A model generated the notes under the pieces. It saw only the letters and a list, made by a program, of their open reading frames with translations, was not told where the DNA came from and searched no databases. This document shows, piece by piece, positions 35,052 to 61,928 of a DNA stretch of 64,000 bases. Source of the stretch: Splendidivirga corallicola (GTDB lineage Bacteria > Bacteroidota > Bacteroidia > Cytophagales > Cyclobacteriaceae); NCBI GenBank assembly GCA_030442035.1, contig JAUJEA010000016.1, positions 62,001 through 126,000 on the forward strand, given 5' to 3'. A program made the translations under genes and the position numbers. Numbering within the stretch: position 1 is the stretch's first letter; each line of letters starts with the position of its first letter.

Positions 35052-37472
35052 TCATTCATCTCGCAAGGTGTCTACAGGGTTGGCTTTGGCCACTTTAAAA
35101 GTCAAATATCCCAATGTTGCCCAGGCAATGAATAAGATAAGTAGTCCTGTTAGCAGAAAAACAGCCGGATTAATAGTAATTCGAAAAGTAAAATTTTGTA
35201 ACCAATTATTCATGATCCACCATGCAATTGGTCCCCCGATTAAAATGGCTATGGCCATCAGTTTGGTGAAGTCCTTGATGAGTAAAGTCATGAGTTCGGG
35301 AATAGAGGCTCCCAGTGCCTTTCTAACACCGATCTCCTTTGTCCTTTGACCAAATAATAATATGGCCAAGCCTAATAAACCGAAACAAGCAATGGTCGCA
35401 GCCAATAACGAAAACCCACTGAAGACCTGTGCCATTTTTTCCTCAGCTCTGTACTGCCGGTCAATGCTTTCATCAAGAAATGTGTATTCGAACTGAAAAT
35501 CCTCGTCAAATACATTCCATGCGTTTCTTATAGATTCAATTGTCCTGGTATAATCCTTAGAATTCAATTTAACCATAACATGGTTGAAATTTGAAGCCAC
35601 CCGCATAATGATTGGACGAATGGGTTGATGCAAAGATTTAAAATGAAAATCCTTGACAACTCCTATAACGGTACCTTTAAACAAAGGACCATCAGCATTC
35701 CAAACAAGAGCTTCACCTATAGGGGTTTCAATATTCAGCGCCCTGACCGCGGTTTCATTAATGATAAAAGCCAGAGATGAATCCGTAGTATGATCTATGG
35801 AAAATCCTCGCCCTTCGATAACCTCAAGGTTCAGGGTTTTTAAAATGTCAAAATCAACCATAAATTCCGATGCATTCACAATATTCTGATCGTCGCGGCT
35901 TAGGTATATTGGATTCTGATTAAATTGCCCACCTGGTACATTGGAAGCAGCAGAAACACTTTCCACTCCTGATATGTTGAGCAAGCTTGTTTTTAATTCC
36001 TGAAAATGGTCCGAAATATCACTGGACTTTGATGGAATTACAATTACCTGTTCTTTACCAAAACCGAGATCTTTGTTTTTGATAAAATTTAATTGACCAT
36101 AGATAATAATACTTCCTGTGATCAGGACCATGGAAATAGAAAATTGTAAAATCACGAGCGTTTTACTTAAGAACTTTCCTTTGGTACTCGCCTTAAAATG
36201 CCCTTTTAATATTTGTGAAGATTTTATGGAAGACAGGTACAAGGCCGGATATATACCGGATATAACACCAACAAAACCTCCTACGGTCAATAATATTAAT
36301 ATCATTTCAGGTTGTTGGAAATAATTAATGTTCAGAGATTTTCCCGTAACATTATTGAACAATGGTAAGGTAACTTCTATCAACAAACCCGTGATGATCA
36401 GTGCCAAAAGTGTTGTCAGGATTGATTCTCCAAGAAATTGAGAGGCTATTTCCTTCCTGCTGGCACCTGATGCTTTTCTAACACCAATCTCTTTTACTCT
36501 TTCAATTGATTTACCTATGCTTAGATTGACAAAATTTACACAGGCGATGATCAGGATAAAAAGGGCAGCAGCACTCATGATATATACATAGCCCATATTG
36601 CCATTGGATTCCAACTCCCAGCGTATATTGGATTTTAAGTGAATGTCTTCAAGAGGTTGTAATCTGAAAGCGGTGTTACTTATAACTAGTCTTTCCAATC
36701 TCTCCTGTGATATATCCAAATGTCCTGCAACCCAGGGCATCAGCTTATCCTCAAGTGCCTGAATATTTGATTTTGGATGTAACTTGATATAGTTAAAATG
36801 TCCAAAATCAGTCCATTCGTAATATTCACTTTCGGGATCAGAGAATGCCTTAAGCGTAACGTAGGAAACTAAAAAGTCAAAATGGAAATGTGCGTTATCA
36901 GGTACATTGGCAAATACACCTTCCACCTGTAGTAGCGTTTGGTCATCATTGATCGCCAGTTGTTTCCCAATAGGATCTTCCTGAGCAAAATATTTTTGTG
37001 CCATGGTTTCCGATATGAGTAATCCTCCAATGTTTCTGAGTACTTTGGTTTGATCTCCTCTGGTTAACTTAAAGGAAAAGACATCAAAAAAAGTACTGTC
37101 AACACTTAATACCCCCGGTTCATCAAACTGTATGTTTTTCTCCAGGTTCTTGATTGAAAATGTCTGTTTGGTCAGACCGGGTCCCCAAATAGGAGAGAGG
37201 CTTACCGCACTTACTACTTCGGGAAAGTCATTGACCATTGCCTGTGCCATGGGATGGGGTGTTCTGGTCTGAGGATTGTCTGAAAACCAGGCAATACGAT
37301 AAATGTTCTTGGAATTTTCATGAAATTTATCATAGCTCAATTCATTCTGGATGAATAGCAGGATCAGGATCACGCAGGCCATACCAATGCTCAATCCAGA
37401 TATATTGATAGCCGAGTGTACTTTATTTTTTGCCAGGTTTCTGAGGGTGATTTTTATATAATTCTTTACCAT
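35052..37472 (-). CDS. MacB/FtsX-type ABC transporter permease (array gene 4 of 4)
   Basis: About 806 residues from the ATG at 37472 (MVKNYIKITLRNLAKNK); the frame also opens upstream at a TTG inside an AT-rich repeat, which is not a plausible start. Organisation: TM1 (about 20-45), periplasmic MacB_PCD-like domain, three TMs with the FtsX motif KEIGVRKASGASRKEI, TM5, a second periplasmic domain and three last TMs with KEIGVRKALGASIPEL. This is the double-FtsX, about 800-residue type common in Cytophagales. It needs a separate LolD/MacB-like ATPase, none of which is nearby. Last gene of a leftward array of four. Confidence 0.92.
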   Translation of the reverse strand: MVKNYIKITLRNLAKNKVHSAINISGLSIGMACVILILLFIQNELSYDKFHENSKNIYRIAWFSDNPQTRTPHPMAQAMVNDFPEVVSAVSLSPIWGPGLTKQTFSIKNLEKNIQFDEPGVLSVDSTFFDVFSFKLTRGDQTKVLRNIGGLLISETMAQKYFAQEDPIGKQLAINDDQTLLQVEGVFANVPDNAHFHFDFLVSYVTLKAFSDPESEYYEWTDFGHFNYIKLHPKSNIQALEDKLMPWVAGHLDISQERLERLVISNTAFRLQPLEDIHLKSNIRWELESNGNMGYVYIMSAAALFILIIACVNFVNLSIGKSIERVKEIGVRKASGASRKEIASQFLGESILTTLLALIITGLLIEVTLPLFNNVTGKSLNINYFQQPEMILILLTVGGFVGVISGIYPALYLSSIKSSQILKGHFKASTKGKFLSKTLVILQFSISMVLITGSIIIYGQLNFIKNKDLGFGKEQVIVIPSKSSDISDHFQELKTSLLNISGVESVSAASNVPGGQFNQNPIYLSRDDQNIVNASEFMVDFDILKTLNLEVIEGRGFSIDHTTDSSLAFIINETAVRALNIETPIGEALVWNADGPLFKGTVIGVVKDFHFKSLHQPIRPIIMRVASNFNHVMVKLNSKDYTRTIESIRNAWNVFDEDFQFEYTFLDESIDRQYRAEEKMAQVFSGFSLLAATIACFGLLGLAILLFGQRTKEIGVRKALGASIPELMTLLIKDFTKLMAIAILIGGPIAWWIMNNWLQNFTFRITINPAVFLLTGLLILFIAWATLGYLTFKVAKANPVDTLRDE

Positions 37473-37474
37473 AT

Positions 37475-37647
37475 CAATTAACAATTAGCAGTTAACAATG
37501 AACAGTTAATCTGTATGACATCTCTCTTGATTAGAAAGAATAGTAAGATGATTTTTATATTCTCTTTCATTTCTTTTGACATTCTAAGTTTTTAGTGGCT
37601 TACACAATCCTATTGTTAATTGCCAATTGATCATTGCTAATTGTCAT
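37475..37647. repeat. Spacer bounded by inverted AT-rich repeats (copy 1)
   Basis: The spacer starts with repeats of the word CAATTAACAAT/AACAATGAAC (37475-37510) and ends with the inverse words TTGTTAATTGCCAATTG (37612-37647, running into the next gene's last codons). The core in between has a stretch like ATTTTTATATTCTCTTTCAT, matched by a similar stretch in the second copy at 40034-40200. Confidence 0.75.
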
Positions 37648-40025
37648 TCGTTTCTTAGCGAATGAATGGGATTGTTGAGTCCGGCCTTGATGGATTGGTA
37701 GCTCACGGTTATTAAGGCGATAAACATAGCTGCAATTGCTGCTAATAATACCATCCAAAGCTGGATATTAATTCTGTAAACAAAATTTTCCAACCACTTT
37801 TCCATGGCAAACCAGGCCAATGGAATACCGATAAAGCTTGCTATCATTACCAGTTTGAGGAGGTCCTTTGAGAGCAGTATAAAAAGTTGCACTAACCGGG
37901 CGCCCAATACCTTTCTGATGCCAATCTCTTTGATTCTTTTTTGTGTGGCAAAAGTGGCTAATCCAAACAACCCCATACAGGCAATGAACAATGCAATAGA
38001 TGAAAATAAAATGATTATTTCTTTTTGCTTTTGTTCGGCTTGATAAAGTGCTTCGAAGCTTTGGTCCAGGAATTTATATTCCATCGGATACTTTTCTACC
38101 AGATTATCCCAAATACTTTCAATTTGATTAATGACTTTTTTTGGGGTATTGGTACTGATTTTAATAGCGATGGCTCGATGATCTTCAATCAGGGAGATGA
38201 TCAAGGGATCAATTTTATTTTTTAGGGAAGCAAAGTGGTAGCTATCGATTACTCCTATGACCTGCCTGGGTAAAGAATCCAAAAAATTGTTTTGTATTTC
38301 CTTACCAATGGCCGTTTCATTGGTCCAGCCTAGGTACTTAACTGCTTCTTCATTAATAAGCAATGCCTCTGCAAAATCTGTTTGACGCTTTTCTGAAAAA
38401 TCCCTTCCTTCCAGTACCTCAATATTAAATGTCCGGAGATAATCATGGTCTGTAAAAACCGTTCGAAGCCTGATATTGCTTTTTCCTTCTTCAGGCAAGG
38501 TGAAAGAATAGTTGTCATGAAATCCTCCCGGTTCACCGGAAATAAAGGTCGCACTTGTAACATCAACTATATTTTCAAGCCGGTTTTTAAATGTTTCTTT
38601 TTTAGCTCGTATATCTGAATTATCCAGCGGGAGGATTATGATATTCTCTTTGTTGAATCCCAGCTTTTTATTATTGACAAAATCAAGTTGTGCACTAACA
38701 ATGATCGTGGCGATGATAAGTATAATGGAAATACAAAATTGAAATATGACCAATCCCTTCCTGAGGAATGTTCCCCCTTTTCCTGTCTGAGATTTTCCTT
38801 TGAGCACTGTAGCCGGCTGAAAGGAAGACAAATAGACAGCCGGATAAAGTCCTGACAATGCACTTACAATAAGGATAAGTATAAAGGCAAAACCGGGATA
38901 CAATAACCTGTCAAATGGAATGCTCAGATCTTCACCAACAAAATTGTTAAAGAGAGAAAGCCCCACTTCCACCATAAGAAAAGCAATGAGCGTGGCTATA
39001 GTTGAATAAAGAAAAGCTTCAATGAAAAATTGTTGGATCAGGTTATAACGGAGTGCTCCACTTGTTTTTCTAATACCAACCTCGAGTGCCCGACTGGCAG
39101 AACTGGCCGTACTTAGGTTTAGGAAATTAATGCAGGCAATGACCAATATAAAAACAGCGATGATAGAAAAGATAACCACCATGGTCTCGTCTCCATGTTT
39201 GGCAAAATCGAATCCAACTTCGTTGTTGAAATAAACATCCTCCAGAGGTTCCAGCGAGAGCCCCATTTTTGTGCCGGTATTTCTGAAATGATCACCAAAA
39301 TATTTCTCCATGAACCAATCGAACCTGGTCTCAATTTCTTTATGGTTTTTATGTTCGGGAATTAGCACATAAGTGATGAAACCATTGCTCCACCAGTCTC
39401 CAAACCATCTTCGGTTTTTGACCAGATCGGTTGTGGCCAGCAGATCAAAATCGAGATGGGTATTGCCAGGGAAATCGTCCAGCACACCTGTTATTTTTAA
39501 TTCAATGGTATTGTCTAGTTGTACCACTTTGCCTATTGGATTATCATCTCCGAAGTATTTTATGGCAGTGGCCTTCTTAATTACCAAACCATTAGGCTCT
39601 GATAAGGCGGTTTTTCGATCACCGTAAAGCAATGGATAAGAGAAGAATTCCAGGAAAAGGCTGTCAACGAGAAACAATTTACTTTCATTGAAAGATTTGT
39701 CCTGATAGGTAACTAATCCTGTATTGGGTAATACATGGGTGGTTTTTAATATTTCTCCTTCAAAATCAGTCAGCAGATGTGTGGCAAAGGGAGCAGAAGT
39801 GATACCAATTTTATAAACATTTCCTTCATCTCTTGATTCTCTTAAGACCCGATAGATCTGATCACCTTTTTCATGAAACTTATCATAGTTCTTTTCATTT
39901 TGAACAAATAAAAAAATGAACATACAACTCACTATCCCCAGGATCAAACCAGAGATATTAATAAAACCATATAGCTTATGCCTGAGCAAGTTTCTGAATG
40001 CGGAAATGATATAACTTTTGAACAT
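37644..40025 (-). CDS. MacB/FtsX-type ABC transporter permease (array gene 3 of 4)
   Basis: About 793 residues from the ATG at 40025 (MFKSYIISAFRNLLRHK); the 13 extra codons upstream are encoded by the AT-rich repeat and are not real. The same layout as its neighbours: TM1, periplasmic domain (about 45-280), three TMs with LEVGIRKTSGALRYNL, TM5, second periplasmic domain, then three TMs with KEIGIRKVLGARLVQL. It ends NNPIHSLRNE, the usual PxxxLRxE tail of this family. The proteins in the array share the fold but differ widely in the periplasmic parts, so they may recognise different cargo or envelope signals. Confidence 0.92.
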   Translation of the reverse strand: MFKSYIISAFRNLLRHKLYGFINISGLILGIVSCMFIFLFVQNEKNYDKFHEKGDQIYRVLRESRDEGNVYKIGITSAPFATHLLTDFEGEILKTTHVLPNTGLVTYQDKSFNESKLFLVDSLFLEFFSYPLLYGDRKTALSEPNGLVIKKATAIKYFGDDNPIGKVVQLDNTIELKITGVLDDFPGNTHLDFDLLATTDLVKNRRWFGDWWSNGFITYVLIPEHKNHKEIETRFDWFMEKYFGDHFRNTGTKMGLSLEPLEDVYFNNEVGFDFAKHGDETMVVIFSIIAVFILVIACINFLNLSTASSASRALEVGIRKTSGALRYNLIQQFFIEAFLYSTIATLIAFLMVEVGLSLFNNFVGEDLSIPFDRLLYPGFAFILILIVSALSGLYPAVYLSSFQPATVLKGKSQTGKGGTFLRKGLVIFQFCISIILIIATIIVSAQLDFVNNKKLGFNKENIIILPLDNSDIRAKKETFKNRLENIVDVTSATFISGEPGGFHDNYSFTLPEEGKSNIRLRTVFTDHDYLRTFNIEVLEGRDFSEKRQTDFAEALLINEEAVKYLGWTNETAIGKEIQNNFLDSLPRQVIGVIDSYHFASLKNKIDPLIISLIEDHRAIAIKISTNTPKKVINQIESIWDNLVEKYPMEYKFLDQSFEALYQAEQKQKEIIILFSSIALFIACMGLFGLATFATQKRIKEIGIRKVLGARLVQLFILLSKDLLKLVMIASFIGIPLAWFAMEKWLENFVYRINIQLWMVLLAAIAAMFIALITVSYQSIKAGLNNPIHSLRNE

Positions 40026-40033
40026 AGGTTTTT

Positions 40034-40200
40034 CAATTAACAATTTGCAATTAACAATGAACAATTGAGTTGTTTAATATTCCATTCGTTGTGAAGCTGT
40101 AATGAAATAATTTTTATGTTCTTATTCATTTCTTTTGATTTTATGGGTTTTAATTTGCTCAATGACAAATTGTTAATTGCCAATTGTTCATTGTTAATTG
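40034..40200. repeat. Spacer bounded by inverted AT-rich repeats (copy 2)
   Basis: CAATTAACAATTTGCAATTA and following bases (40034-40067) face the inverse words ending TTCATTGTTAATTG (40166-40200) across a core of about 98 bp. Left and right edges are near reverse complements. The core shares ATTTTTAT and TTCATTTCTTTTGA words with copy 1 at 37475-37647, in the same place relative to the flanking permease genes. Confidence 0.78.
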
Positions 40201-42575
40201 TCTCTCAGTGTTTTCACAGGATTTACACGTGCTGCTTTGAGGGATTGATAACTTACGGTTATCCAGGAAATGATCAGTACAGCAATAGAAGCAATGATCA
40301 GTATATCTATGCCAACGTTGATTTTATAAGCAAAATCATTAAGCCATTGATGCGCAATATACCAAGCGACCGGTATTGAAATTAGCATGGCAATAAATAC
40401 CAAACGATTGTAATCTCTGATGAACAATTTGATCACACTAAATACAGATGCACCAAGCACCTTTCTGATCCCAATTTCTTTTCGTCTTTGTTCTGCACTA
40501 TATGAGGCCAAACCAAATAATCCCAAAATGGCTATTAATATCGTAAGGCCTGTGAACGCCCAGAAGATTTTAGCCAGTTTCTGCTCCGATCTATAGTACT
40601 TATCAAAAGTTTCATCCAGAAAAGTATATTCGAATGGCTTATCTGGTACGTGTCGTTTCCATATATCTTCTAAAGTTTCCAAAAACTCAGAGAGATTTTC
40701 GGTCTTATACCTAATACCAAGTTGACTGTACAATTTATTGTATGGCTTTATTTGTAGAATCAACGGTGTTATATGTTGTTTTAGGGAAAGGAAATGAAAG
40801 TCTTTCACGACTCCTATCACCTGAAATTCTTTCTCTATCGATTCACGTGTATAAAAATTGTATTCCCGTTTGGAGACCCTTTTACCTATTGGATTGTCGC
40901 TCCATCCAAATTCTTTTACTGCTGATTCATTTATAATGATTGAATTAATGCTATCACCAGGGAGCATTTCTGAAAAAGCCCTGCCTTGCTTGACCTCAAT
41001 CCCCAAGGTTGTCATGAAATTAAAATCCACATAAGAAATGCTTGCGGTTACAAGTCCTTCATTTTCTCCCAACCCCTCAGGAGTTACCGGTCCCGTCATA
41101 GTCATTCCCGGCATAGGGCCTACAGCTAAATTTTCTACTTCATTCAACTGTTTAACTTCGTTCATAAAAGAGGACAATTTATCGCCTTTTAACGCAATCC
41201 TCTTGTTGGTCAGTAGTACATTCTCTTTATCGAACCCTAACCTTTTTATTTGTATATATTGTAGTTGCTTATGGATCACTATGGCGCCAATGACCAGTAT
41301 CAATGTGATGGCAAATTGAAATACTACCAGAATTTCTCTAAACGATACATTGGTTTTCTTTCCATGTAAAATGCCTTTAAGGATATTTTGAGGACTAAAA
41401 GCGGAAAGAAAAAATGCCGGATAACTCCCGGCGATGATACTCGTGACAATAGTGGTAGCTAATAGTAGAGAAAATGTCTCAATTGAAAGTAATCGAAAAT
41501 CAAGGGTTTTATCAGTTATTTGATTGAATAATGGTAAAGCAATTTCAACCAGAACACCAGCCAATAAAACAGCCACAAGAGTCAACATCAACGTTTCACC
41601 AATGAATTGGTACATAATCTGCCTTCTCGAAGCGCCACTTACTTTTCTAATACCTACTTCCTTTGCTCGTCGCATTGATCTGGCGGTAGCCAGATTAGTG
41701 TAGTTAATACAAGCAATGAACAGGATAAGTAAGGCAATACAAGTAAATATATATACATAGCGAATATCACTGCCGGCCTTAAAAAAATCACCTTTTGGAC
41801 CACTATATAGGTGGATTGAAGTGATAGGTTCCAATATATAAGTATTTTCATCTTTGTCCGATTTACGATTTTTTATGAAAATCTCTTTTATCTTATCACC
41901 AATACCCTCCAACGAATAATCTTTCAATAACTTAGCATAAGTTTGGTACATGCTCCAGCTCCATTCCTGCTCATCATCTTCAGAGAACTTATGTGGGATC
42001 ACTATTTTAAAAGTAATATGAGAATTGGTTGGCGGGTCAGCTGCTATACCGGTAATTATTTTCTCTTTCCCATTCAGCTTAAGCGTTTTACCTATGGGAT
42101 CCTCCAGGCCAAAATATTTATCAGCTAAGCTTTTGACGATGACGATGCTTTCTTTATCAGATAGTACTTTATCGGGATTGCCGGCTAACAATTTAAAAGA
42201 GAAGAAGGAAAAGAAATCTGCATCCGCGCCAATATAACCTGATTCATAAAAAGCGTCGATGCCATTGGTAATTAAAGGCCCGGCGTAACTGGCTAATCTT
42301 TGTGTAGCAATAATGCCAGGGATTTCGTTTTTCAACGCAGGAGCAAATGGTGTAGGCGTAAAGTAATTGACTTCTTTTTTCTTATTAACAAAGCCAATTC
42401 TATATAGATTGTCAGCATCCTTATGAAACTTGTCATAACTCAATTCATCCAATACAAATAAAGAAATTAATAATACACAAGCTAACCCTACAGCCAATCC
42501 TGTAATGTTGATGAAGGAATATCCTTTATATTTTTTGAGGTTTCTAAAAGCTATTTTAAAGTAATTTTTTATCAT
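40194..42575 (-). CDS. MacB/FtsX-type ABC transporter permease (array gene 2 of 4)
   Basis: A 793-residue protein starting MIKNYFKIAFRNLKKYKG. TM1 (VGLACVLLISLFVL), a periplasmic domain, the FtsX block with KEVGIRKVSGASRRQI, TM5, a second periplasmic domain and a last block with KEIGIRKVLGASVFSV. It ends NPVKTLRDN. The 3' end runs into the inverted repeat of the spacer that follows. Only 21 bp separate it from the upstream permease gene, so these two are certainly co-transcribed. Role: ATP-driven transport or mechanical coupling across the envelope through an unlinked ATPase; cargo unknown. Confidence 0.92.
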   Translation of the reverse strand: MIKNYFKIAFRNLKKYKGYSFINITGLAVGLACVLLISLFVLDELSYDKFHKDADNLYRIGFVNKKKEVNYFTPTPFAPALKNEIPGIIATQRLASYAGPLITNGIDAFYESGYIGADADFFSFFSFKLLAGNPDKVLSDKESIVIVKSLADKYFGLEDPIGKTLKLNGKEKIITGIAADPPTNSHITFKIVIPHKFSEDDEQEWSWSMYQTYAKLLKDYSLEGIGDKIKEIFIKNRKSDKDENTYILEPITSIHLYSGPKGDFFKAGSDIRYVYIFTCIALLILFIACINYTNLATARSMRRAKEVGIRKVSGASRRQIMYQFIGETLMLTLVAVLLAGVLVEIALPLFNQITDKTLDFRLLSIETFSLLLATTIVTSIIAGSYPAFFLSAFSPQNILKGILHGKKTNVSFREILVVFQFAITLILVIGAIVIHKQLQYIQIKRLGFDKENVLLTNKRIALKGDKLSSFMNEVKQLNEVENLAVGPMPGMTMTGPVTPEGLGENEGLVTASISYVDFNFMTTLGIEVKQGRAFSEMLPGDSINSIIINESAVKEFGWSDNPIGKRVSKREYNFYTRESIEKEFQVIGVVKDFHFLSLKQHITPLILQIKPYNKLYSQLGIRYKTENLSEFLETLEDIWKRHVPDKPFEYTFLDETFDKYYRSEQKLAKIFWAFTGLTILIAILGLFGLASYSAEQRRKEIGIRKVLGASVFSVIKLFIRDYNRLVFIAMLISIPVAWYIAHQWLNDFAYKINVGIDILIIASIAVLIISWITVSYQSLKAARVNPVKTLRDN

Positions 42576-42596
42576 GATCTTTTGGGTTGTTTGGGC

Positions 42597-44996
42597 TCAT
42601 TCTTCTTTTAATGAATCAATAGGGTTAGCCAACGCTGCTCTCAAGGCTTTAAAACCGACAGTAAAGCCAGCAATTACAATAGCGAATATGGCGGCTATTG
42701 CAAACGTCCACCAGGTCATTTCTACCCTGTATTCGAAGTTCCTGAGCCAATAACGCATAGAGAAAAAAGCCAATGGAAAAGCGATGATACTGGATATTAA
42801 AATGAGTTTTACAAAATCCCAGGTGATCAGGAATGAAAGTTTTGAGATAGAACATCCCAATACTTTCCTGATGCTTATCTCTTTTGCACGTTGCAAGATG
42901 GTGAATGAGGAAAGACCGAAAATTCCCAGACAGGCAGTGAAGATAGCGAGACCAGTAAATATGGTAAATACACTGAGAAACCGCTCTTCTGTGATATACA
43001 GATTATATAGATCTTCCCTTAAAAACGAATATCGGAAATCCCTTTTGTTTTCTATTGTTTTCCATTGCCCCTCTATAAAAGCAAGTGTCTCCTGCATATC
43101 CTCCTGATTTGCTTTAACAGAAATCCAACTCATTCCACGATCAGGTATCAGGAAGAACACCATTGGTTTAATCTTATTATAAAGTGTTTCGAAATGAAAA
43201 TCTTCAATCACTCCAACCACTTCATTATCGATGTCCGATCTATAACGGGCTATTTGTCCAATAGCTTCTTCCGGAGATTTTATACCTAAGGCTTTTAGTG
43301 CTGCTCTGTTAAAAATGATGGCGAGTGAATCAGTAGCAAAATCCCTTGAAAAGTACCTTCCGGATATCAATTCCACTTCATACATTTCCAGGAAATCATA
43401 ACCCACCAACAACGTGCTAAGCCTTGCTTGGTTTTGCTCTCCATCAACCTCTGCAGTCATCATAGTGCCGGAATTAATATCTCTACCAAGTCTTCTGAAA
43501 GAGGTAGCCGCATGTGTGATATTGGGATTTCTCAATAATTCAGTTTTAAAGGACACAAATTTTTCAGCAATAGCATCGGTAGCGGGAAATACGATCGTGT
43601 GTTGAACATCTGCACCAAGCTCTTTGTTTCTGAGGAATTGCCATTGGCTATATACGATGAGCGTTCCTACAATAAGTCCAATGGATATGATAAACTGAAA
43701 AACGACCAAACCTTTTCTCAAGAAAAGCGCACCATTACCTAATTTGGTTATGGTTCCTTTAAGAACTTGCGTAGTATTAAATGAGGACAAATAAAAGGCC
43801 GGATAGATTCCCGACAGGATCCCAACAACATAGGACAAAACAATGAAAATGATCAATAATGATAGATTATCAAGGATGCTTACTTCGAGATTTTTTGCCA
43901 GTATCTCGTTGAAATAGGTAATCGATAATTCTGCGAGAAGACCGGCCAAAATGATTGAAATAGTAACAATGAAAAGTGACTCTCCAAGAAATTGAAATGC
44001 AATTTGTTGTTTGTATGCGCCAATGGCTTTTCTAATGCCCACTTCCCGACTTCTCTTGGAGGATTTAGCTATGGCCAGATTGATATAGTTAACACAAGCT
44101 ATAATGATAATGATCAGGGCTACGGCAGAAAATATCTGAATGTAAATGAATTTGCTGTTAGCCTCAATCTCACTATTCAGGTTTGAATATAGATGGATAT
44201 CTGTAAGCGGCTGAAGAAAGAATTTAATGAACCAATCACCCTCAATATGCTTTTCGCCAAAGTCTAACAATCTGCTCTCAAACTGAGTGGGACTCAAGTT
44301 TTCTGGCAAAACAACGTAGGTGTAACCTGAATCCCACCCCCAGTTTTGATAAAGACTTTCAGGAAAGAGTTCTTTTCCGGTGGCCATAGAAATAAGCAGA
44401 TCCATATGAAAATGCGAATTACCAGGCATCTCATGCATAATTCCTGTTACTTCTGCTTCAATATCTCCGGATCCGTAGGGCTCACCTATCGTAAGTATTT
44501 GACCAATGGGATTTGCATCCCCGAAATATCGTTGTGCTACATTTTGGGTAATCACAACAGAATTCGGTTTTAATAATGCTGTTTCGGAATTTCCTATTAT
44601 CAGCTCAAAACTGAAAACTTTCAAAAATGCCGAATCAACAAAGGAAATCCGTTCTTCTCTAAATTTTTTGTCTTTATATTTTACTTCATGTCCATACAGG
44701 CGACTAAAACGTACAACATGCTCCAATTCAGGAAAATCAACTGGAAGTGTAGAGCCCAAACGATGTGAAGTACTTGCTATGGGTTTTGTACCGGTTCCAA
44801 GACTTACTTCATGACCAACCCTGTATATTCTTTCTGCATTGTCATGGAATCTATCATAACTCAATTCCTCAGTAATGAAAGTAATGATTAATAAGCAGCT
44901 TGCCAGGCCAATGGACAATCCTGCAATGTTAATTGCTGAATAGCCTTTGTGTTTCCAAAGGTTTCTCAGCGCGATTTTGAAATAGTTTTTCAGCAT
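42597..44996 (-). CDS. MacB/FtsX-type ABC transporter permease (array gene 1 of 4)
   Basis: A 799-residue protein starting MLKNYFKIALRNLWKHKGYS. TM1 (GLASCLLIITFI), periplasmic domain, FtsX block with REVGIRKAIGAYKQQI, TM5 (FQFIISIGLIVGTLIVY), second periplasmic domain and a last block with KEISIRKVLGCSISKL. It ends NPIDSLKEE. First gene of the leftward array and thus nearest the twin palindromes at 45104-45143, which lie about 110-150 bp upstream of its start. No ATPase gene follows or precedes it. Confidence 0.92.
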   Translation of the reverse strand: MLKNYFKIALRNLWKHKGYSAINIAGLSIGLASCLLIITFITEELSYDRFHDNAERIYRVGHEVSLGTGTKPIASTSHRLGSTLPVDFPELEHVVRFSRLYGHEVKYKDKKFREERISFVDSAFLKVFSFELIIGNSETALLKPNSVVITQNVAQRYFGDANPIGQILTIGEPYGSGDIEAEVTGIMHEMPGNSHFHMDLLISMATGKELFPESLYQNWGWDSGYTYVVLPENLSPTQFESRLLDFGEKHIEGDWFIKFFLQPLTDIHLYSNLNSEIEANSKFIYIQIFSAVALIIIIIACVNYINLAIAKSSKRSREVGIRKAIGAYKQQIAFQFLGESLFIVTISIILAGLLAELSITYFNEILAKNLEVSILDNLSLLIIFIVLSYVVGILSGIYPAFYLSSFNTTQVLKGTITKLGNGALFLRKGLVVFQFIISIGLIVGTLIVYSQWQFLRNKELGADVQHTIVFPATDAIAEKFVSFKTELLRNPNITHAATSFRRLGRDINSGTMMTAEVDGEQNQARLSTLLVGYDFLEMYEVELISGRYFSRDFATDSLAIIFNRAALKALGIKSPEEAIGQIARYRSDIDNEVVGVIEDFHFETLYNKIKPMVFFLIPDRGMSWISVKANQEDMQETLAFIEGQWKTIENKRDFRYSFLREDLYNLYITEERFLSVFTIFTGLAIFTACLGIFGLSSFTILQRAKEISIRKVLGCSISKLSFLITWDFVKLILISSIIAFPLAFFSMRYWLRNFEYRVEMTWWTFAIAAIFAIVIAGFTVGFKALRAALANPIDSLKEE

Positions 44997-45023
44997 AATA
45001 GGCTTGGTTAGTGAATATGATTG

Positions 45024-45039
45024 TACTAATCCTATGCCA
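45024..45039 (-). promoter_or_regulatory. Weak sigma54 -24/-12 candidate for the permease array
   Basis: On the minus strand TGGCAT-AGGAT-TAGTA has the TGGCA -24 half with correct spacing to a -12 half, but the latter (TAGTA for TTGCA) is poor and lacks the invariant GC. It lies 28-43 bp upstream of the first permease start and 65-120 bp downstream of the twin palindromes, a normal enhancer distance. Confidence 0.22.
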
Positions 45040-45103
45040 TTAAATGTAAACTACTGAAAATTAATAACTTAAATGGTTTGAATATAAGCATAATAACTAA
45101 AAC

Positions 45104-45143
45104 TGTTTCATGGTGAAACATATTTGTGTTTCAGAGTGAAACA
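45104..45143. promoter_or_regulatory. Twin palindromic activator sites TGTTTCA-N3-TGAAACA
   Basis: Two perfect 7+7 palindromes with a 3-bp spacer occupy 45104-45120 (spacer TGG) and 45127-45143 (spacer GAG). Their centres are 23 bp apart, about two helical turns, so two dimers would bind on the same DNA face. Such paired sites upstream of a promoter are typical enhancers for NtrC-type regulators, and one is encoded 270 bp away. The link is inference. Confidence 0.65.
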
Positions 45144-45249
45144 GTTATCTTTGAAATATGATTAGATCAAGTGACATTCATAGGAAGCGAATCTAGTCCA
45201 ATATACTGTTCTTTTAAAAATGTCCTAATTCAAAATTCAGCCATTAGGT

Positions 45250-45330
45250 ATTGGCAATCAGGTATTAGCCTTTTAAAAGATCTGTCCATAACAAAGTTGA
45301 TACCTAAAACCTGAGATCTGAGAGCTTTTA
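45250..45330. repeat. Dispersed imperfect palindromic repeat (copy A)
   Basis: AATCAGGTATTAGCCTTTT on the left faces GATACCTAAAACCTGAGATC and AGAGCTTTT on the right. The 13-mer CTAAAACCTGAGA (45304-45316) and the AGGTAT/ATACCT words recur at 52495-52561. It looks like a REP-like or MITE-like intergenic element. Confidence 0.6.
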
Positions 45331-45411
45331 AAAATTACTTGAAAAATTGATACTCAATCTCATGGAAGTTTCTTTACCCTATTTCGGCTTGATCTATAAC
45401 ATTTCATAAAC

Positions 45412-46782
45412 ATGAAGAAAGTTAAGGGAAAGATATTAATTATTGATGATGACCCGGATGTACTGCACACAGCGCGTTTCGTATTAAAAACCCAATTTAC
45501 GGATATCATCACGGAAAGCGATCCTAACCAGATCAATTACTTGTTAAATCACGAACGTTTTGATGTGATCTTATTGGATATGAACTATACCATTGGAGAG
45601 ACGAGTGGGAGGGAAGGGTTGAATTGGCTGGAGCATATTCTTCAGATAAATCCTGCTCAAAATGTGGTGATGATCACAGCTTATGGTGATATCAAACTGG
45701 CAGTGGAGACAATGAAGGTCGGAGCGGCAGACTTTGTCGTCAAACCTTGGGAAAATGAAAAATTAATCGCCACAGTGTACGCCGCCTTCAACCATAGCCA
45801 ATCTAAAAAAGAGGTAGAAAGACTGCGTTCAAAGCAGGAACACTTAAGTAAAGCTTATGCCACTCCGGAAACAGAAATCATAGGTAATTCTTCTGCCATG
45901 AAGGAGGTATTCGCTACAGTGAAAAAAGTAGCACGGACAGATGCCAATGTATTAATTCTGGGAGAGAATGGAACCGGTAAAGAGCTCATTGCCAAAGCGC
46001 TTCATCAGGCATCACAGAGAAATCATGAAGCTTTTATAAAAGTGGACCTTGGTGCAATTTCAGAAACTTTATTTGAATCTGAGTTATTCGGGCATGTGAA
46101 AGGAGCTTTTACGGATGCAAAGGAAGATCGCCTTGGGCGTTTTGAGATTGCCAGTGGCGGTACACTTTTCCTGGATGAGATAGGCAATCTTTCCATGCAG
46201 CTTCAAGCCAAGTTATTAACTGTGACCCAAAACAGAGAAGTATTTAAGGTTGGCTCGAATGTTCCCGTTCCCATTGATATTCGATTGATCTGTGCTACCA
46301 ACATGCCCTTGTATGAATTAGTGGTGGAGAAGAAATTTAGAGAAGACCTGCTCTACAGGTTCAATACGGTGGAAATCAGGTTACCACCATTGCGAGAAAG
46401 ACCGGAAGACATTCCTCTATTGAGCGAATATTTTCTCGATATATATGCAGCGAAGTATCGAAAGAGAAACCTCAAATTAAGTAATACCGCTATGAACTAT
46501 TTGCAAAAGTATTTCTGGCCGGGAAACGTGAGAGAGTTACAACATGCCATCGAACGGGCTGTCATTATGAGTGAGGAAGATGAACTAAAGAAGACAGATT
46601 TTTTGCTCAATGATAAGAAACACGTTCCATCACAAGAGAAAAATTACAACCTGGATGAAGTGGAACGGGAAACTATCAAGGAGGCAATCGAAAGACATGC
46701 CGGAAATATGAGCAGAGCGGCCAAGGAACTCGGTCTTGGTAGAACAACATTGTATCGTAAAATCCAGAAATATGGTTTATAA
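45412..46782 (+). CDS. Sigma54-dependent response regulator, NtrC family
   Basis: A 456-residue protein. Receiver domain (1-125) with the acidic pair IDDD, phosphoacceptor D56 in ILLDM and the conserved Lys in VVKPW. AAA+ domain (about 155-385): Walker A GENGTGKELIAKAL, Walker B GGTLFLDEIG, arginine-finger region FREDLLYRFNTVEIRLPPLR. The sigma54-contact loop reads GAFTDA (231-236) instead of GAFTGA. C-terminal Fis-type helix-turn-helix (AAKELGLGRTTLYRKIQKYG). The kinase gene overlaps its end by 11 bp. Expected to bind the twin palindromes and activate the permease array, possibly itself too. Confidence 0.93.
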   Translation: MKKVKGKILIIDDDPDVLHTARFVLKTQFTDIITESDPNQINYLLNHERFDVILLDMNYTIGETSGREGLNWLEHILQINPAQNVVMITAYGDIKLAVETMKVGAADFVVKPWENEKLIATVYAAFNHSQSKKEVERLRSKQEHLSKAYATPETEIIGNSSAMKEVFATVKKVARTDANVLILGENGTGKELIAKALHQASQRNHEAFIKVDLGAISETLFESELFGHVKGAFTDAKEDRLGRFEIASGGTLFLDEIGNLSMQLQAKLLTVTQNREVFKVGSNVPVPIDIRLICATNMPLYELVVEKKFREDLLYRFNTVEIRLPPLRERPEDIPLLSEYFLDIYAAKYRKRNLKLSNTAMNYLQKYFWPGNVRELQHAIERAVIMSEEDELKKTDFLLNDKKHVPSQEKNYNLDEVERETIKEAIERHAGNMSRAAKELGLGRTTLYRKIQKYGL

Positions 46783-48169
46783 GAACTTTAGATTAAATGT
46801 TGTTGTCAGAATTGCGGTCATATTTGTACTTGCAATTTTGCTGGCTTTTGTGCTGTCTCAAACCAACTGGTTTTTCACTCCACTGGTGATTATTTTATTG
46901 TTACTCATTTTTCTTCTGAGCCTGATCCGTTATGTTGAAAAAACGAATCGTGACATCACTTACTTTTTATTGTCTATTCAGCAGGGAGGGTTTACCAATA
47001 CTTTTAAATCTAATAAAAGGGGTATTAATTACGATGCGCTCAGTGAGGCATTTAATAGCATTATTAAGGAGTTTCAACGTGTTGCTCTGGAAAAAGAATC
47101 TCATTACCAATATTTACAAACCTTAAATGAAAACATTGGAGTGGCTATCATTAGTTACCTGGATTCCGGGGAAATACAGCTTTATAATTACGCCGCCAAG
47201 AAATTGATCCAGAAACCTTTTTTGAACAACATTCATGATTTAAAAGACATTAACGAAGAACTGTATGAGTTGATCATGGACCTGAAGCCCGGGCGCAGAA
47301 AGATTGCTAAAATATTCCTGAGGGAACAAACCCAACAGCTTTCAATTCACTTCAAAGAGTTCAAATTGAAAGACCAGGATTTTAAATTAGTGTTAATGCA
47401 AAATATCAATGCAGAATTGGATGAAAAGGAAGTGGAGGCCTGGCAAAAGCTTACCAGTGTTTTAACACATGAGATCATGAATTCAGTAACCCCGATTGCC
47501 TCTTTGACTGAAGCTATCAATAAAATGCTTAACGGAGGAAACGAACACAAAAAGAGCGTGGCTAAATTGGAAGAGGAGGATTTGGAGGACATTCATACAA
47601 GCCTTGAAACCATTGAAAATCGTAGTAAAGGATTACTCAAATTTGTGCATGCCTATAAGGATTTTTCAAAAACTCCGGATATCAATTTAGTAAGAACAGA
47701 CATTGTAGCTTTATTAAGGCGCATCCAGTCATTACTTGGACCTGATTTTCAACAAAACAAGATTGAACTGGATTGGCCATCTGATCATAAAGCAGTCATC
47801 ATTTTAGCTGACCCGGAACTCATTGAGCAAGTCTTGATCAATTTACTTAAAAACGCTATGGAGGCGCTTAATGGAGAGCCCGATGGAAAAATAAAAATCC
47901 GGCTTAGTGATGTCAACAATCACAGATTGAAGCTTTATATCAGCGATAATGGTATGGGTATCGATAAAAATATTCTGGACAAGATATTTGTTCCCTTCTT
48001 CACCACCAAAAAGAAAGGGACCGGTGTAGGGCTCAGTTTATCAAAAAAAATCATGAAGCTTCATGATGGTTCTATTGCCGTACAGTCAAAAAAAGGAAAG
48101 GGGACTACATTCATACTTGATTTTCCTGTTGAACAGGAAGTGTCCTCAATTGATAGGGAAACTACTTAA
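46772..48169 (+). CDS. Sensor histidine kinase, NtrB-like output
   Basis: About 465 residues from the ATG at 46772, which overlaps the regulator's last codons by 11 bp; the frame opens 12 codons earlier but that part only mirrors the regulator sequence. Two N-terminal TMs (IAVIFVLAILLAFVLS and FTPLVIILLLLIFLLSLI) with almost no periplasmic loop, a PAS-like cytosolic region, H-box H233 in LTHEIMNSVTPI, N-box LINLLKNAMEAL, G1 SDNGMGID and G2 GTGVGLSL. The short loop suggests it senses a signal in the membrane or cytosol. Cognate to the upstream regulator by overlap and divergence from the permeases. Confidence 0.92.
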   Translation: MVYKNFRLNVVVRIAVIFVLAILLAFVLSQTNWFFTPLVIILLLLIFLLSLIRYVEKTNRDITYFLLSIQQGGFTNTFKSNKRGINYDALSEAFNSIIKEFQRVALEKESHYQYLQTLNENIGVAIISYLDSGEIQLYNYAAKKLIQKPFLNNIHDLKDINEELYELIMDLKPGRRKIAKIFLREQTQQLSIHFKEFKLKDQDFKLVLMQNINAELDEKEVEAWQKLTSVLTHEIMNSVTPIASLTEAINKMLNGGNEHKKSVAKLEEEDLEDIHTSLETIENRSKGLLKFVHAYKDFSKTPDINLVRTDIVALLRRIQSLLGPDFQQNKIELDWPSDHKAVIILADPELIEQVLINLLKNAMEALNGEPDGKIKIRLSDVNNHRLKLYISDNGMGIDKNILDKIFVPFFTTKKKGTGVGLSLSKKIMKLHDGSIAVQSKKGKGTTFILDFPVEQEVSSIDRETT

Positions 48170-57136: not shown

Positions 57137-57688
57137 TTACCAATTGGCAACAGTAGCATTGAATATATCGAGGACAATCTGATCGAAGATAGTCTCAATT
57201 AAACGATCTTCTTCAGTGGAAAGATCAGATTCTGTTTCGTAATCGTCATAGAATGAAAAGGATCTGTTAAAGTCTTCTTCTTCGTTCTGTGTGTTAATAT
57301 AAGAGACCTTCACGGTAATAGTCAGTCTGGTGAGTGCTGCCTGATCAGAGATATCATCGCTTCCCGAAGCTCGTGGAGCGACCGGAGTGAAATTATAGCC
57401 TACGATCTCACCTTCAATTTGCAAATCAGCATCATCTCCGTCTGTCAATACACTAAGTTGTGTGTTTTGCTGGTAAAAGTCACGAAGGCCCTCAGTAAAG
57501 GTATTGCTCAATGTGGGTGGGCCATCTCCTGACAGGTTTTCAAAGAATTTTACGGATATCGTTTTAGTGGTGGCATAATCGATTGAAACACCAGTAAATG
57601 AGTAAAATTTACAGCTTTCAAAGCATGTCAGAGGGATTAATAGTAAAACTGGAACGAAAAAAGAAAGCCATCTATTCTTCAATTTCAT
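57137..57688 (-). CDS. LptE-family lipopolysaccharide assembly lipoprotein
   Basis: About 183 residues from the ATG at 57688 (MKLKNRWLSFFVPVLLLIPL), with a lipobox-like end LTCFESCKF and a probable acylated Cys. The start overlaps the preceding regulator gene by 17 bp. The mature part (YATTKTISVKFFENLSGDGP, LSNTFTEGLRDFYQ, LQIEGEIVGYNFTPVAPRAS, RLTITVKVSYIN) is the LptE fold as seen in Bacteroidota. LptE plugs the LptD barrel that inserts LPS in the outer membrane. lptD is not in the window. Confidence 0.85.
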   Translation of the reverse strand: MKLKNRWLSFFVPVLLLIPLTCFESCKFYSFTGVSIDYATTKTISVKFFENLSGDGPPTLSNTFTEGLRDFYQQNTQLSVLTDGDDADLQIEGEIVGYNFTPVAPRASGSDDISDQAALTRLTITVKVSYINTQNEEEDFNRSFSFYDDYETESDLSTEEDRLIETIFDQIVLDIFNATVANW

Positions 57689-58928
57689 ATTGCTTGATTT
57701 TACGGTACAATGTTCTTTCCGATATCCCCAAATCTTGTGCCGCATATTTTCTTTTATTATTATTTTTTTTCAATGCTTTGATAATCAGTTCTTTCTCTTT
57801 TTTCTCAATAGAGAGCGATTCATCTTCATCTTCTGTTTCATGCATCACATCCTCAATTTTATCAGGATCATAGGTTTGCTCTGATGTTGTTTTAGGCTCC
57901 AACCAAACAGGCTGCGGCTCAATATCTTCAGGAGAACTGCTTTCCGCTATATTACTAAAGAGGTCCTGGTGTTCTTTCAGGATCTGAGCATCATAATTCT
58001 CGTTTTGAATAACATCCTTCACCAGCTTCTTAAGATCATTCACATCCTTTCGCATTTCGAAAAGTATTTTATACAGTAGATCTCTCTCTGACAACTCATC
58101 ACCATTTGCTCCTGTGTACAAAGCAGGCATATTTCTGCTTACCTGAGGCAGATATTTTCTTAGTGTATTGGCATCGATTTCTCGCTCTGTTTCAAGCACG
58201 GATATTTGTTCAGCCAGATTTTTCAATTGGCGAATATTTCCGGGGAAAGGAAACTGTAATAAGATTTCTTTAGCTTCAGGTGCGAGCTGAATAGGCTTTG
58301 CCCGATATTTTTCTGAATAATCAGCGGCAAATTTTCTAAAAAGTAAATAGATATCTTCTCCGCGATCTCTTAGAGGAGGAATTTTAATTGGTACGGTGTT
58401 CAATCGATAATAAAGGTCTTCACGAAACTTGCCTTTTTCTACCGACTGATAAAGATCCACATTGGTTGCAGCCACAACACGCACATCGGTTTTTTGTACT
58501 TTGGAAGAACCAACCTTAATGAACTCACCATTTTCAAGAACTCTTAACAACCGGGCTTGTGTTCCCATGGGCATTTCACCAATTTCATCAAGAAAGATGG
58601 TGCCTTTGTTGGTTACTTCAAAATATCCCTTTCTGGCTTCTGTGGCTCCTGTAAATGATCCCTTTTCGTGACCAAAAAGCTCGGAGTCAATGGTGCCTTC
58701 AGGAATGGCACCACAGTTGATTGCGATAAACGGACCATGTTTTCTTGCGCTCAGGCTATGGATGATTTTGGAAAAAGATTCCTTACCACTGCCACTTTCA
58801 CCTGTAATCAAAACAGTCATATCAGTGGGGGCCACCTGACTTGCTTTTTTTATGGCAAGATTGAGCAGGGGGGAATTACCAATGATCCCAAATCTTTGTT
58901 TTATACTTAAAAGTTCAACGTCTCTCAC
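57672..58928 (-). CDS. Sigma54-interacting transcriptional activator, no receiver domain
   Basis: A 418-residue protein without a receiver or other sensor domain: the AAA+ domain starts at once (QRFGIIGNSPLLNLAIKKAS). Walker A GESGSGKESFSKII, the sigma54 loop GSFTGA in KGSFTGATEARKGYFE, Walker B GTIFLDEIG, arginine finger FREDLYYRLNTVPIKIPPLR. A linker with a Glu/Asp-rich stretch leads to a Fis-type helix-turn-helix (KYAAQDLGISERTLYRKIKQ). Constitutive activity or control by partner proteins is likely. It is downstream of miaB and overlaps lptE, so it may regulate envelope genes, as seen in related genomes. Confidence 0.92.
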   Translation of the reverse strand: MRDVELLSIKQRFGIIGNSPLLNLAIKKASQVAPTDMTVLITGESGSGKESFSKIIHSLSARKHGPFIAINCGAIPEGTIDSELFGHEKGSFTGATEARKGYFEVTNKGTIFLDEIGEMPMGTQARLLRVLENGEFIKVGSSKVQKTDVRVVAATNVDLYQSVEKGKFREDLYYRLNTVPIKIPPLRDRGEDIYLLFRKFAADYSEKYRAKPIQLAPEAKEILLQFPFPGNIRQLKNLAEQISVLETEREIDANTLRKYLPQVSRNMPALYTGANGDELSERDLLYKILFEMRKDVNDLKKLVKDVIQNENYDAQILKEHQDLFSNIAESSSPEDIEPQPVWLEPKTTSEQTYDPDKIEDVMHETEDEDESLSIEKKEKELIIKALKKNNNKRKYAAQDLGISERTLYRKIKQYEIEE

Positions 58929-60740: not shown

Positions 60741-61928
60741 ATGGCTACAAGAAGGATTATCATTGTTCTTATTGGTCTCGGAATTATTGTTGGTTCTATA
60801 TTTATCATGGGAGCACTGGTTTCGATGAAAAAAGACCCTGAAAAGAAGACACAGGCTGAGATAAAAAGATACGTCAAAACCGAGCCTGTGAGGTATTCTA
60901 ATATCAACACGGAAATAGCAGCATACGGAAGGGTCAGGACGGCTGAATCTTTGGATTTGATAGCAGAAGTTTCAGGGAGGATGTTTGCAGGACCTTTTCC
61001 TTTGAAAGAAGGTCAGCGATTTAAAAGAGGTGATCTACTCTTTAGGATCGATGATACGGAGTCCAAACTCAACTTGCAGTCACAGAAGAGTAATTTTTTG
61101 AGAGATCTAGCGGCTATATTACCGGATCTGAAAATCGATTTCTCCGAAAATTATACGCAATGGAACAGCTATTTTGAATCGATTGATCTCAATAAATCGC
61201 TGCCGGAATTGCCTGCTTATAAATCTCAAAAAGAAAAAACATTTCTGGCAACAAAAAGTATTTTCAGTAATTATTATTCAATAAAGAGTGCTGAAGCTAA
61301 TTTAAGAAAGTATCACTTTTATGCTCCTTTTGATGGCAATATTTCATTGGTGAATTTACAGTCTGGCTCCTATGTTAATCCGGGCAATAATATCGGAAGG
61401 ATTATCAGGTCGGGGAGATTAGAGCTAAAAGTAGCCGTAGAGACCAAAGATATCGGATGGATCCAAAAGGGCACCAACGTTAAGGTGAATGCCGAAAATA
61501 GTGATGTTCCCTGGAAAGGTATTATTACCAGAATTGGAGAGTTTGTAAATCAGAATACCCAATCGATCGATGTTTTCATTGCTATTGAGCCTAATGGCAA
61601 CGCACTGTACGATGGTCAATATTTAAAATCTGCCATTCCGGCTAAATCTATCGAACGAGGTATGATCATTCCCAGGAATGCCATTTTCAATGAGAATGAG
61701 GTTTTTGTTTTACAGGATACTGTTCTCAAAGTAAGGCGGATAAATATTCATAAGCTCAATCCTGAAACTGTAGTTTTCTCCGGCCTGGAAGAAGGTTTGG
61801 ATCTTGTTACGGAGCCACTTGTGAATGCTCATAACAATATGAAGGCCTATAAGCTGGAAGAGAAAAAAGATATTAATTTGGAAAAAAAGGTTGTCGATAC
61901 ACAAACCGTTAAAAGCTCAAATCCATGA
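60741..61928 (+). CDS. RND efflux periplasmic adaptor (membrane fusion protein)
   Basis: A 395-residue protein. An N-terminal membrane anchor (IIIVLIGLGIIVGSIFIMG) is followed by a lipoyl/barrel-sandwich half (VAxGxVR-type: IAAYGRVRTAESLDLIAEVS), a short helical hairpin (about 115-190), the second lipoyl half (YHFYAPFDGNISLVNLQSGS YV) and beta-barrel parts (LKVAVETKDIGWIQKGTNVK). It links the inner-membrane RND pump to an outer-membrane channel. The pump gene overlaps it by four bases (ATGA). The C-terminal tail is Lys-rich. Confidence 0.9.
   Translation: MATRRIIIVLIGLGIIVGSIFIMGALVSMKKDPEKKTQAEIKRYVKTEPVRYSNINTEIAAYGRVRTAESLDLIAEVSGRMFAGPFPLKEGQRFKRGDLLFRIDDTESKLNLQSQKSNFLRDLAAILPDLKIDFSENYTQWNSYFESIDLNKSLPELPAYKSQKEKTFLATKSIFSNYYSIKSAEANLRKYHFYAPFDGNISLVNLQSGSYVNPGNNIGRIIRSGRLELKVAVETKDIGWIQKGTNVKVNAENSDVPWKGIITRIGEFVNQNTQSIDVFIAIEPNGNALYDGQYLKSAIPAKSIERGMIIPRNAIFNENEVFVLQDTVLKVRRINIHKLNPETVVFSGLEEGLDLVTEPLVNAHNNMKAYKLEEKKDINLEKKVVDTQTVKSSNP

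Follow-up and report, generated by a model that had tools for sequence, protein, structure and literature searches.

The permease bank and its divergent two-component genes

We looked at positions 35,052 to 48,169 of a 64,000-nucleotide stretch (the window) of the Splendidivirga corallicola genome. A block of four permease genes (35052-44996, minus strand) is divergent from a regulator and a kinase gene (45412-48169, plus strand), and the 415-bp control region between them carries a pair of perfect 17-bp palindromes at a spacing of 23 bp. The six open reading frames, their positions and orientations as well as the protein types named in a preliminary description of this DNA (permeases with double MacB_PCD/FtsX domains, an NtrC-type regulator, and a histidine kinase) were all recovered.

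35052-37472, minus strand: permease 1 (distal), 806 aa from the likely ATG at 37472; two MacB_PCD and two FtsX domains
37644-40064, minus strand: permease 2, 806 aa as called, likely start at about 40025; MacB_PCD, FtsX
40194-42575, minus strand: permease 3, 793 aa; MacB_PCD, FtsX
42597-44996, minus strand: permease 4 (promoter-proximal), 799 aa; MacB_PCD, FtsX
45024-45040, minus strand: predicted -24/-12 element ATGGCATAGGATTAGTA, 44 bp before the start of permease 4
45104-45120, no strand: predicted promoter-proximal enhancer palindrome TGTTTCA-N3-TGAAACA, perfect over 17 bp
45127-45143, no strand: predicted promoter-distal enhancer palindrome TGTTTCA-N3-TGAAACA, perfect over 17 bp
45412-46782, plus strand: NtrC-type response regulator, 456 aa; Response_reg, Sigma54_activat, HTH_8
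46772-48169, plus strand: histidine kinase, reading frame open from 46736, likely ATG at 46772; HATPase_c, two TM helices

Two MacB_PCD and two FtsX matches were found in every one of the four permeases of about 800 residues and, with the membrane-coupling helix, place them in the Type VII (MacB/FtsX) ABC permease superfamily. They are not MacB proper, which has an N-terminal fused ATPase domain and four TM helices, since we found no ABC_tran domain and eight TM helices. All four scored well under the curated cut-offs for ADOP (246-288 bits against 622 for TIGR03434), DarB (132-160 bits against 700 for NF038008) and MacB. An AlphaFold2 model of permease 1 (pLDDT 86, pTM 0.81) predicts eight TM helices, two periplasmic domains and two coupling helices, and its best full-length fold match was YbbAP, followed by MacB, LolCDE and BceAB. 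For permease 4, PDB sequence matches were 3is6, MacB and YtrF.

Duplicated orphan permeases (ADOP) are internally duplicated, have no adjacent ATPase and form a large paralogous family. The window permeases are alike in these three respects but differ in their low TIGR03434 scores and in the sigma54 regulator of the bank. The darobactin exporter DarB/DarD has a permease similar in size and domains, although scores lie below the cut-offs of its profiles, NF038008 for the permeases and NF038007 for the ATPase. MacAB-TolC shares the MacB_PCD and FtsX domains and the coupling helix, and a HlyD-type adaptor is present in complete sister operons (defined below); contrarily, the window permeases have no fused ATPase and two halves per chain, and the locus is without adaptor or TolC. 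Finally, the E. coli Type VII ABC system YbbAP-TesA (PMC12646458) also has an FtsX-type permease of about 800 aa in a single chain (9ge6/9ge7), but YbbP has its own ATPase, YbbA, identity is about 12%, and neither a sigma54 two-component system nor a bank accompanies it.

The preliminary description had stated that the periplasmic parts differ strongly between copies, and this is the case: periplasmic domains are 28-32% identical between the four copies, while membrane parts are 42-45% identical. Permease 1 is the core permease of its regulator's clade, belonging to an 11-member permease clade with one member per orthologous locus, and in this core clade periplasmic and membrane parts are both about 53-55% identical. 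The equal conservation within the core clade, set beside the divergence between copies, suggests that different specificities were kept over time. Unlike permease 1, the remaining permeases vary among loci of the regulator's clade; permease 2 has its closest relative (47%) in the orthologous locus L065. Because gaps of 129 bp and 171 bp lie ahead of permeases 2 and 1, respectively, a single transcript over all four permeases is presumed rather than proven. These gaps (40065-40193 and 37473-37643) have CAATTGGCAATTAACAAT in common, exact copies of which were found in the genome only there, and each copy is matched by an inverted near-copy at the opposite gap end. The repeats may be a duplication scar or a small mobile element.

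Sister loci in the genome and in relatives

The genome holds about 91 permeases of this kind of at least 740 aa. The preliminary description had stressed a bank of four: the four permeases are indeed present, but this size is not unusual, since larger banks exist. Among 12 strong sigma54 activators in the genome, five of one subfamily adjoin permease banks, with four permeases in the window and four, seven, six and three on contigs C1, C4, C5 and C12, respectively. The four other activators are 56-60% identical to the window regulator, and the C1 bank additionally encodes HlyD and an ATPase. At C12:160000-207000 (L205-L207), in a much larger bank, PadR-type regulators (about 110 aa each) are scattered among about 16 permeases of 860-910 aa, and similar PadR-permease pairs occur elsewhere too. 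At 57672-58928 and 60741-61928 of the window, we noticed a second sigma54 activator without a receiver domain, with a MiaB-like radical-SAM gene and an HlyD-family adaptor alongside.

With the regulator as bait, 80 named loci were obtained, and matches were found in 31 of 39 genomes, counting that of the window. After duplicate removal, 138 regulators were counted: 41 face operons with HlyD or an ATPase (called complete, mostly HlyD-ATPase-permease), 32 face permeases only, 55 face other genes or were not parsed, and 10 were undecided. The divergent arrangement is therefore present in 73 loci (41 complete and 32 permease-only). The neighbourhood is conserved in Cytophagales and Bacteroidales, and the complete form was also found in MAGs labelled Aminicenantes, KSB1 and Rhodothermia. 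In a regulator tree from a quick search, left unrooted, all 32 permease-only rows fell inside one 45-row set (SH-aLRT 99), the rest of which were complete (2), other (9) or undecided (2). This grouping makes the permease-only form look old rather than the product of recent loss. The window regulator belongs to a 14-row clade (SH-aLRT 100%), in which 12 rows are permease-only and two are without a parsed permease chain, so that the bank is kept beside regulator and kinase in the related genomes where the preliminary description had proposed to look for it. It had also taken permeases without two-component genes as a sign of coincidence; many permeases of the genome are of this sort, solitary or PadR-linked and without such a regulator, but within the regulator's clade the linkage is conserved. 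Altogether, judged by gene order and the regulator tree, these comparisons show the regulator/kinase pair and the permease bank to be an old, conserved divergent unit.

The regulator/kinase subfamily was also found beside non-permease genes (L056:4405-8164 on contig C32, L092, L116, L127 and others). At L056, in the window's genome, it adjoins a gene for a DUF3108-like protein; in Echinicola, Algoriphagus and relatives, it adjoins a gene for a conserved protein of about 142 aa.

Predicted control by the neighbouring regulator

The regulator is composed of a receiver, a sigma54 AAA+ domain and a Fis-type HTH with the recognition helix LGLGRTTLYRK (class GRTT), and the likely kinase start overlaps its stop. 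These domains, the adjacent kinase and the presence of rpoN, in single copy in the genome, are those of an NtrC-type sigma54 two-component system.

The preliminary description had spoken of specific DNA sites, which our scans bear out. Exact copies of TGTTTCA-N3-TGAAACA in the 7.77-Mb genome are just the two of the control region, and the tandem has a single occurrence genome-wide even when 3 mismatches are allowed, the reversed control pattern giving 0 matches. Chance recurrence of the palindrome elsewhere in the genome is ruled out by these exact and 3-mismatch scans. In permease-only loci, palindrome pairs (each at least 6/7) at the 23-bp spacing were observed 10 times, against 0.06 expected per spacing.

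To score -24/-12 elements, we trained a matrix on complete operons alone and then applied it to the permease-only loci. At p<=0.05, it gave matches toward the permease in 25 of 32 permease-only regions and toward the regulator in 3 of 32. For 20 permease-only loci carrying a tandem, the best -24 element was located independently of the palindromes. Its distance to the 5' palindrome was 101-104 bp in 15 of these loci, window included, and 92-93 bp, about one helical turn less, in three others. In the window, ATGGCATAGGATTAGTA is the top match of the intergenic region (1.0, against -5.6 for the next). Although weak by sequence alone (shuffle p=0.22), it is accepted because of its position, 103 bp from the 5' palindrome and within the conserved register, a placement that would be expected by chance about 1% of the time over 400 bp. 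The plain consensus TGGCAC-N5-TTGC with 2 mismatches gave 64 matches in place of 44 expected, none of them inside the control region, and scans for sigma70 promoters and terminators gave matches at chance level. The sites of complete operons are TGTYCG-like, most of them at a spacing of 20-21 bp, and a distance of 88-89 bp to the -24 element is frequent; at the complete locus on C1 (L046), we looked for a clean tandem palindrome and found none.

Clear tandem sites were found in three of the five banks of the genome, with a different half-site in each. Across loci, half-sites co-vary with the class of the recognition helix: GRTT goes with TGTTYCA, GRST with TGTGYCA, TRAT with TGTWTAA, and TRSS or TRAS with TGTYCG (p=1e-7 and 4e-10, in statistics that ignore relatedness). 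Since the half-sites change with the helix, the five banks seem to form regulons, each addressed separately. The earlier idea of one regulated unit is supported by the unique tandem palindromes, the conserved -24/-12 register and this covariation, and regulation of the bank by the neighbouring pair is well supported as a prediction from the DNA. The kinase would likely phosphorylate the regulator, which would bind both palindromes and contact sigma54-RNA polymerase at 45024-45040, where permease transcription would then start.

Proposed sensing and energy supply of the permeases

Hydropathy gives, for the kinase of every locus inspected, two TM helices with a few residues between them; such a pair with hardly any loop is characteristic of intramembrane-sensing kinases. 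Because the kinase has almost no extracytoplasmic part, we propose, with somewhat less than even confidence and by analogy with the Bce modules of Firmicutes, that the permeases may help the kinase to sense. A narrower form of this proposal, compatible with the explanation that we favor below, is that one permease would be mainly a kinase co-sensor and the others effectors. This is possible, though we lean against it: the kinase topology fits, one permease is conserved as the core across the clade loci and the rest vary, and BceAB is among the fold matches, but the Bce regulator is OmpR-type and that of the window NtrC-type, same-family kinases occur without adjacent permeases, and no ATPase gene stands beside the permeases of the window locus as it does in Bce modules. 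The latter resemble the window locus in their large permease and kinase, conserved gene linkage and related fold, and differ in a ten-TM permease with one extracellular domain and a dedicated ATPase (PMC10314905, PMC5985334). In BceAB-BceRS, the kinase senses through the transporter, and intramembrane-sensing kinases of such modules depend on the permease for sensing (PMC10314905, PMC5985334).

No ABC ATPase had been reported on either side of the bank. In agreement, no MacB/LolD/DarD-class ATPase is listed on the 149-kb contig of the window (C8), and a scan of ten flanking window proteins gave no ABC ATPase. Nevertheless, both coupling helices are intact in the window permeases, and conservation of the coupling motif E-x-G-x-R-K-x-x-G is the same in 83 permeases of permease-only loci as in 54 of complete operons. 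The search for ATPases elsewhere in the genome, advised in the preliminary description, gave a candidate partner at C1:591744, within the complete sister sigma54 operon (HlyD-ATPase-four permeases), and a stand-alone LolD-like gene, C31:48152. A second C1 ATPase, 51% identical (L046:2492-3175, C1:586512), lies downstream of the kinase in the C1 complete operon, and its type was also found in several permease-bearing relatives.

Among relatives, 25 have both the C1-type ATPase and such permeases, none the ATPase only, one the permeases only and 12 neither. The ATPase is thus present in 25 of 26 relatives with the permeases and in 0 of 12 without (Fisher 5e-9, on genome counts that are not phylogenetically independent). 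Four of the 12 double absences lie in the window's own family, so a single deep split does not account for the whole pattern. The ATPase of three relatives is 55-67% identical, with a less certain assignment; in the sole permease-only exception, G008, a genome 83% complete, the best ATPase reached just 51%. Median identities in complete operons were 81% for the ATPase, 68% for the regulator, 53% for HlyD, 47% for the kinase and 28% for the permease. Slow evolution of the ATPase is weak evidence for a hub, since the LolD-like control is nearly as conserved in the same genomes (76%, 117 of 153 pairs, against 80% for the C1 type).

Taken together, the most likely reading is an inducible, self-contained bank of Type VII (MacB/FtsX) exporters, switched by sigma54 and sharing an unlinked ATPase, to which we give a probability of about 0.62. 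Intact coupling helices, near-strict co-occurrence and an ATPase in a sister operon on another contig indirectly support the earlier proposal of one unlinked shared ATPase, and suggest that the four permeases share it with dozens of sister exporters. With moderate likelihood, each permease would be a one-chain pseudo-dimer whose two coupling helices recruit an ATPase dimer from the sister operon (C1:591744), and one or two ATPases would serve many permeases that differ in their periplasmic domains. The permeases would act through mechanotransmission to move or extrude envelope-active compounds.

Use of the housekeeping LolD-like ATPase of C31 instead is improbable. It is of the right class and encoded on its own, but a same-class match (about 45-50% identity to the C1 ATPase, with orthology judged by score band only) was found in nearly all relatives, permease-less ones included. 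The C31 type therefore does not track the permeases, and this disfavors it as the partner. Similarly doubtful, and slightly more so, is that the permeases need no ATPase, being degenerate envelope sensors or kinase scaffolds. The lack of a linked ATPase, a kinase without a periplasmic sensor domain and the diverged periplasmic domains would fit; contrarily, the coupling helices are as conserved as in ATPase-adjacent permeases, and the C1-type ATPase co-occurs with the permeases across relatives. That permeases and regulator are neighbours by coincidence and controlled separately is very unlikely and already contradicted by conservation: regulator-free permeases and permease-free regulator/kinase pairs do exist, but the divergent arrangement is kept in 73 loci, and the unique shared cis-sites point at the permeases, with register and helix covariation.

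The favored reading, a sigma54-switched bank with an unlinked ATPase, may be extended tentatively. One or two ATPases of a single sigma54 operon would energise about 90 interchangeable duplicated permeases, hub-and-spoke fashion, some of them in separately addressed sigma54 regulons whose enhancers co-diverged with their regulators, and the permeases would sense for kinases without a periplasmic domain. We find this broader picture rather less probable than not.

Duplicated orphan permeases are already known as a class, and a 2025 survey predicts sigma54 promoters at FtsX-like permeases (COG0577) in Bacteroidia (PMC12316311). The passages of that survey on these permeases are without a divergent two-component pair, tandem sites, covariation or a shared-ATPase pattern. 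In our literature search, we found no description of the ATPase co-occurrence pattern, nor of a conserved divergent two-component unit with fixed-register paired sites and regulator/site covariation.

Many Bacteroidota genomes carry numerous ATPase-less FtsX/MacB permeases whose role is not known. A regulon with a named regulator, sites and a candidate ATPase makes the energy source and inducers of such permeases directly testable, and the covariation of half-site and recognition helix is a natural data set on the insulation of paralogous sigma54 regulons. If one ATPase does serve dozens of permeases, Type VII exporters would be modular, like the shared ATPases of sugar importers.
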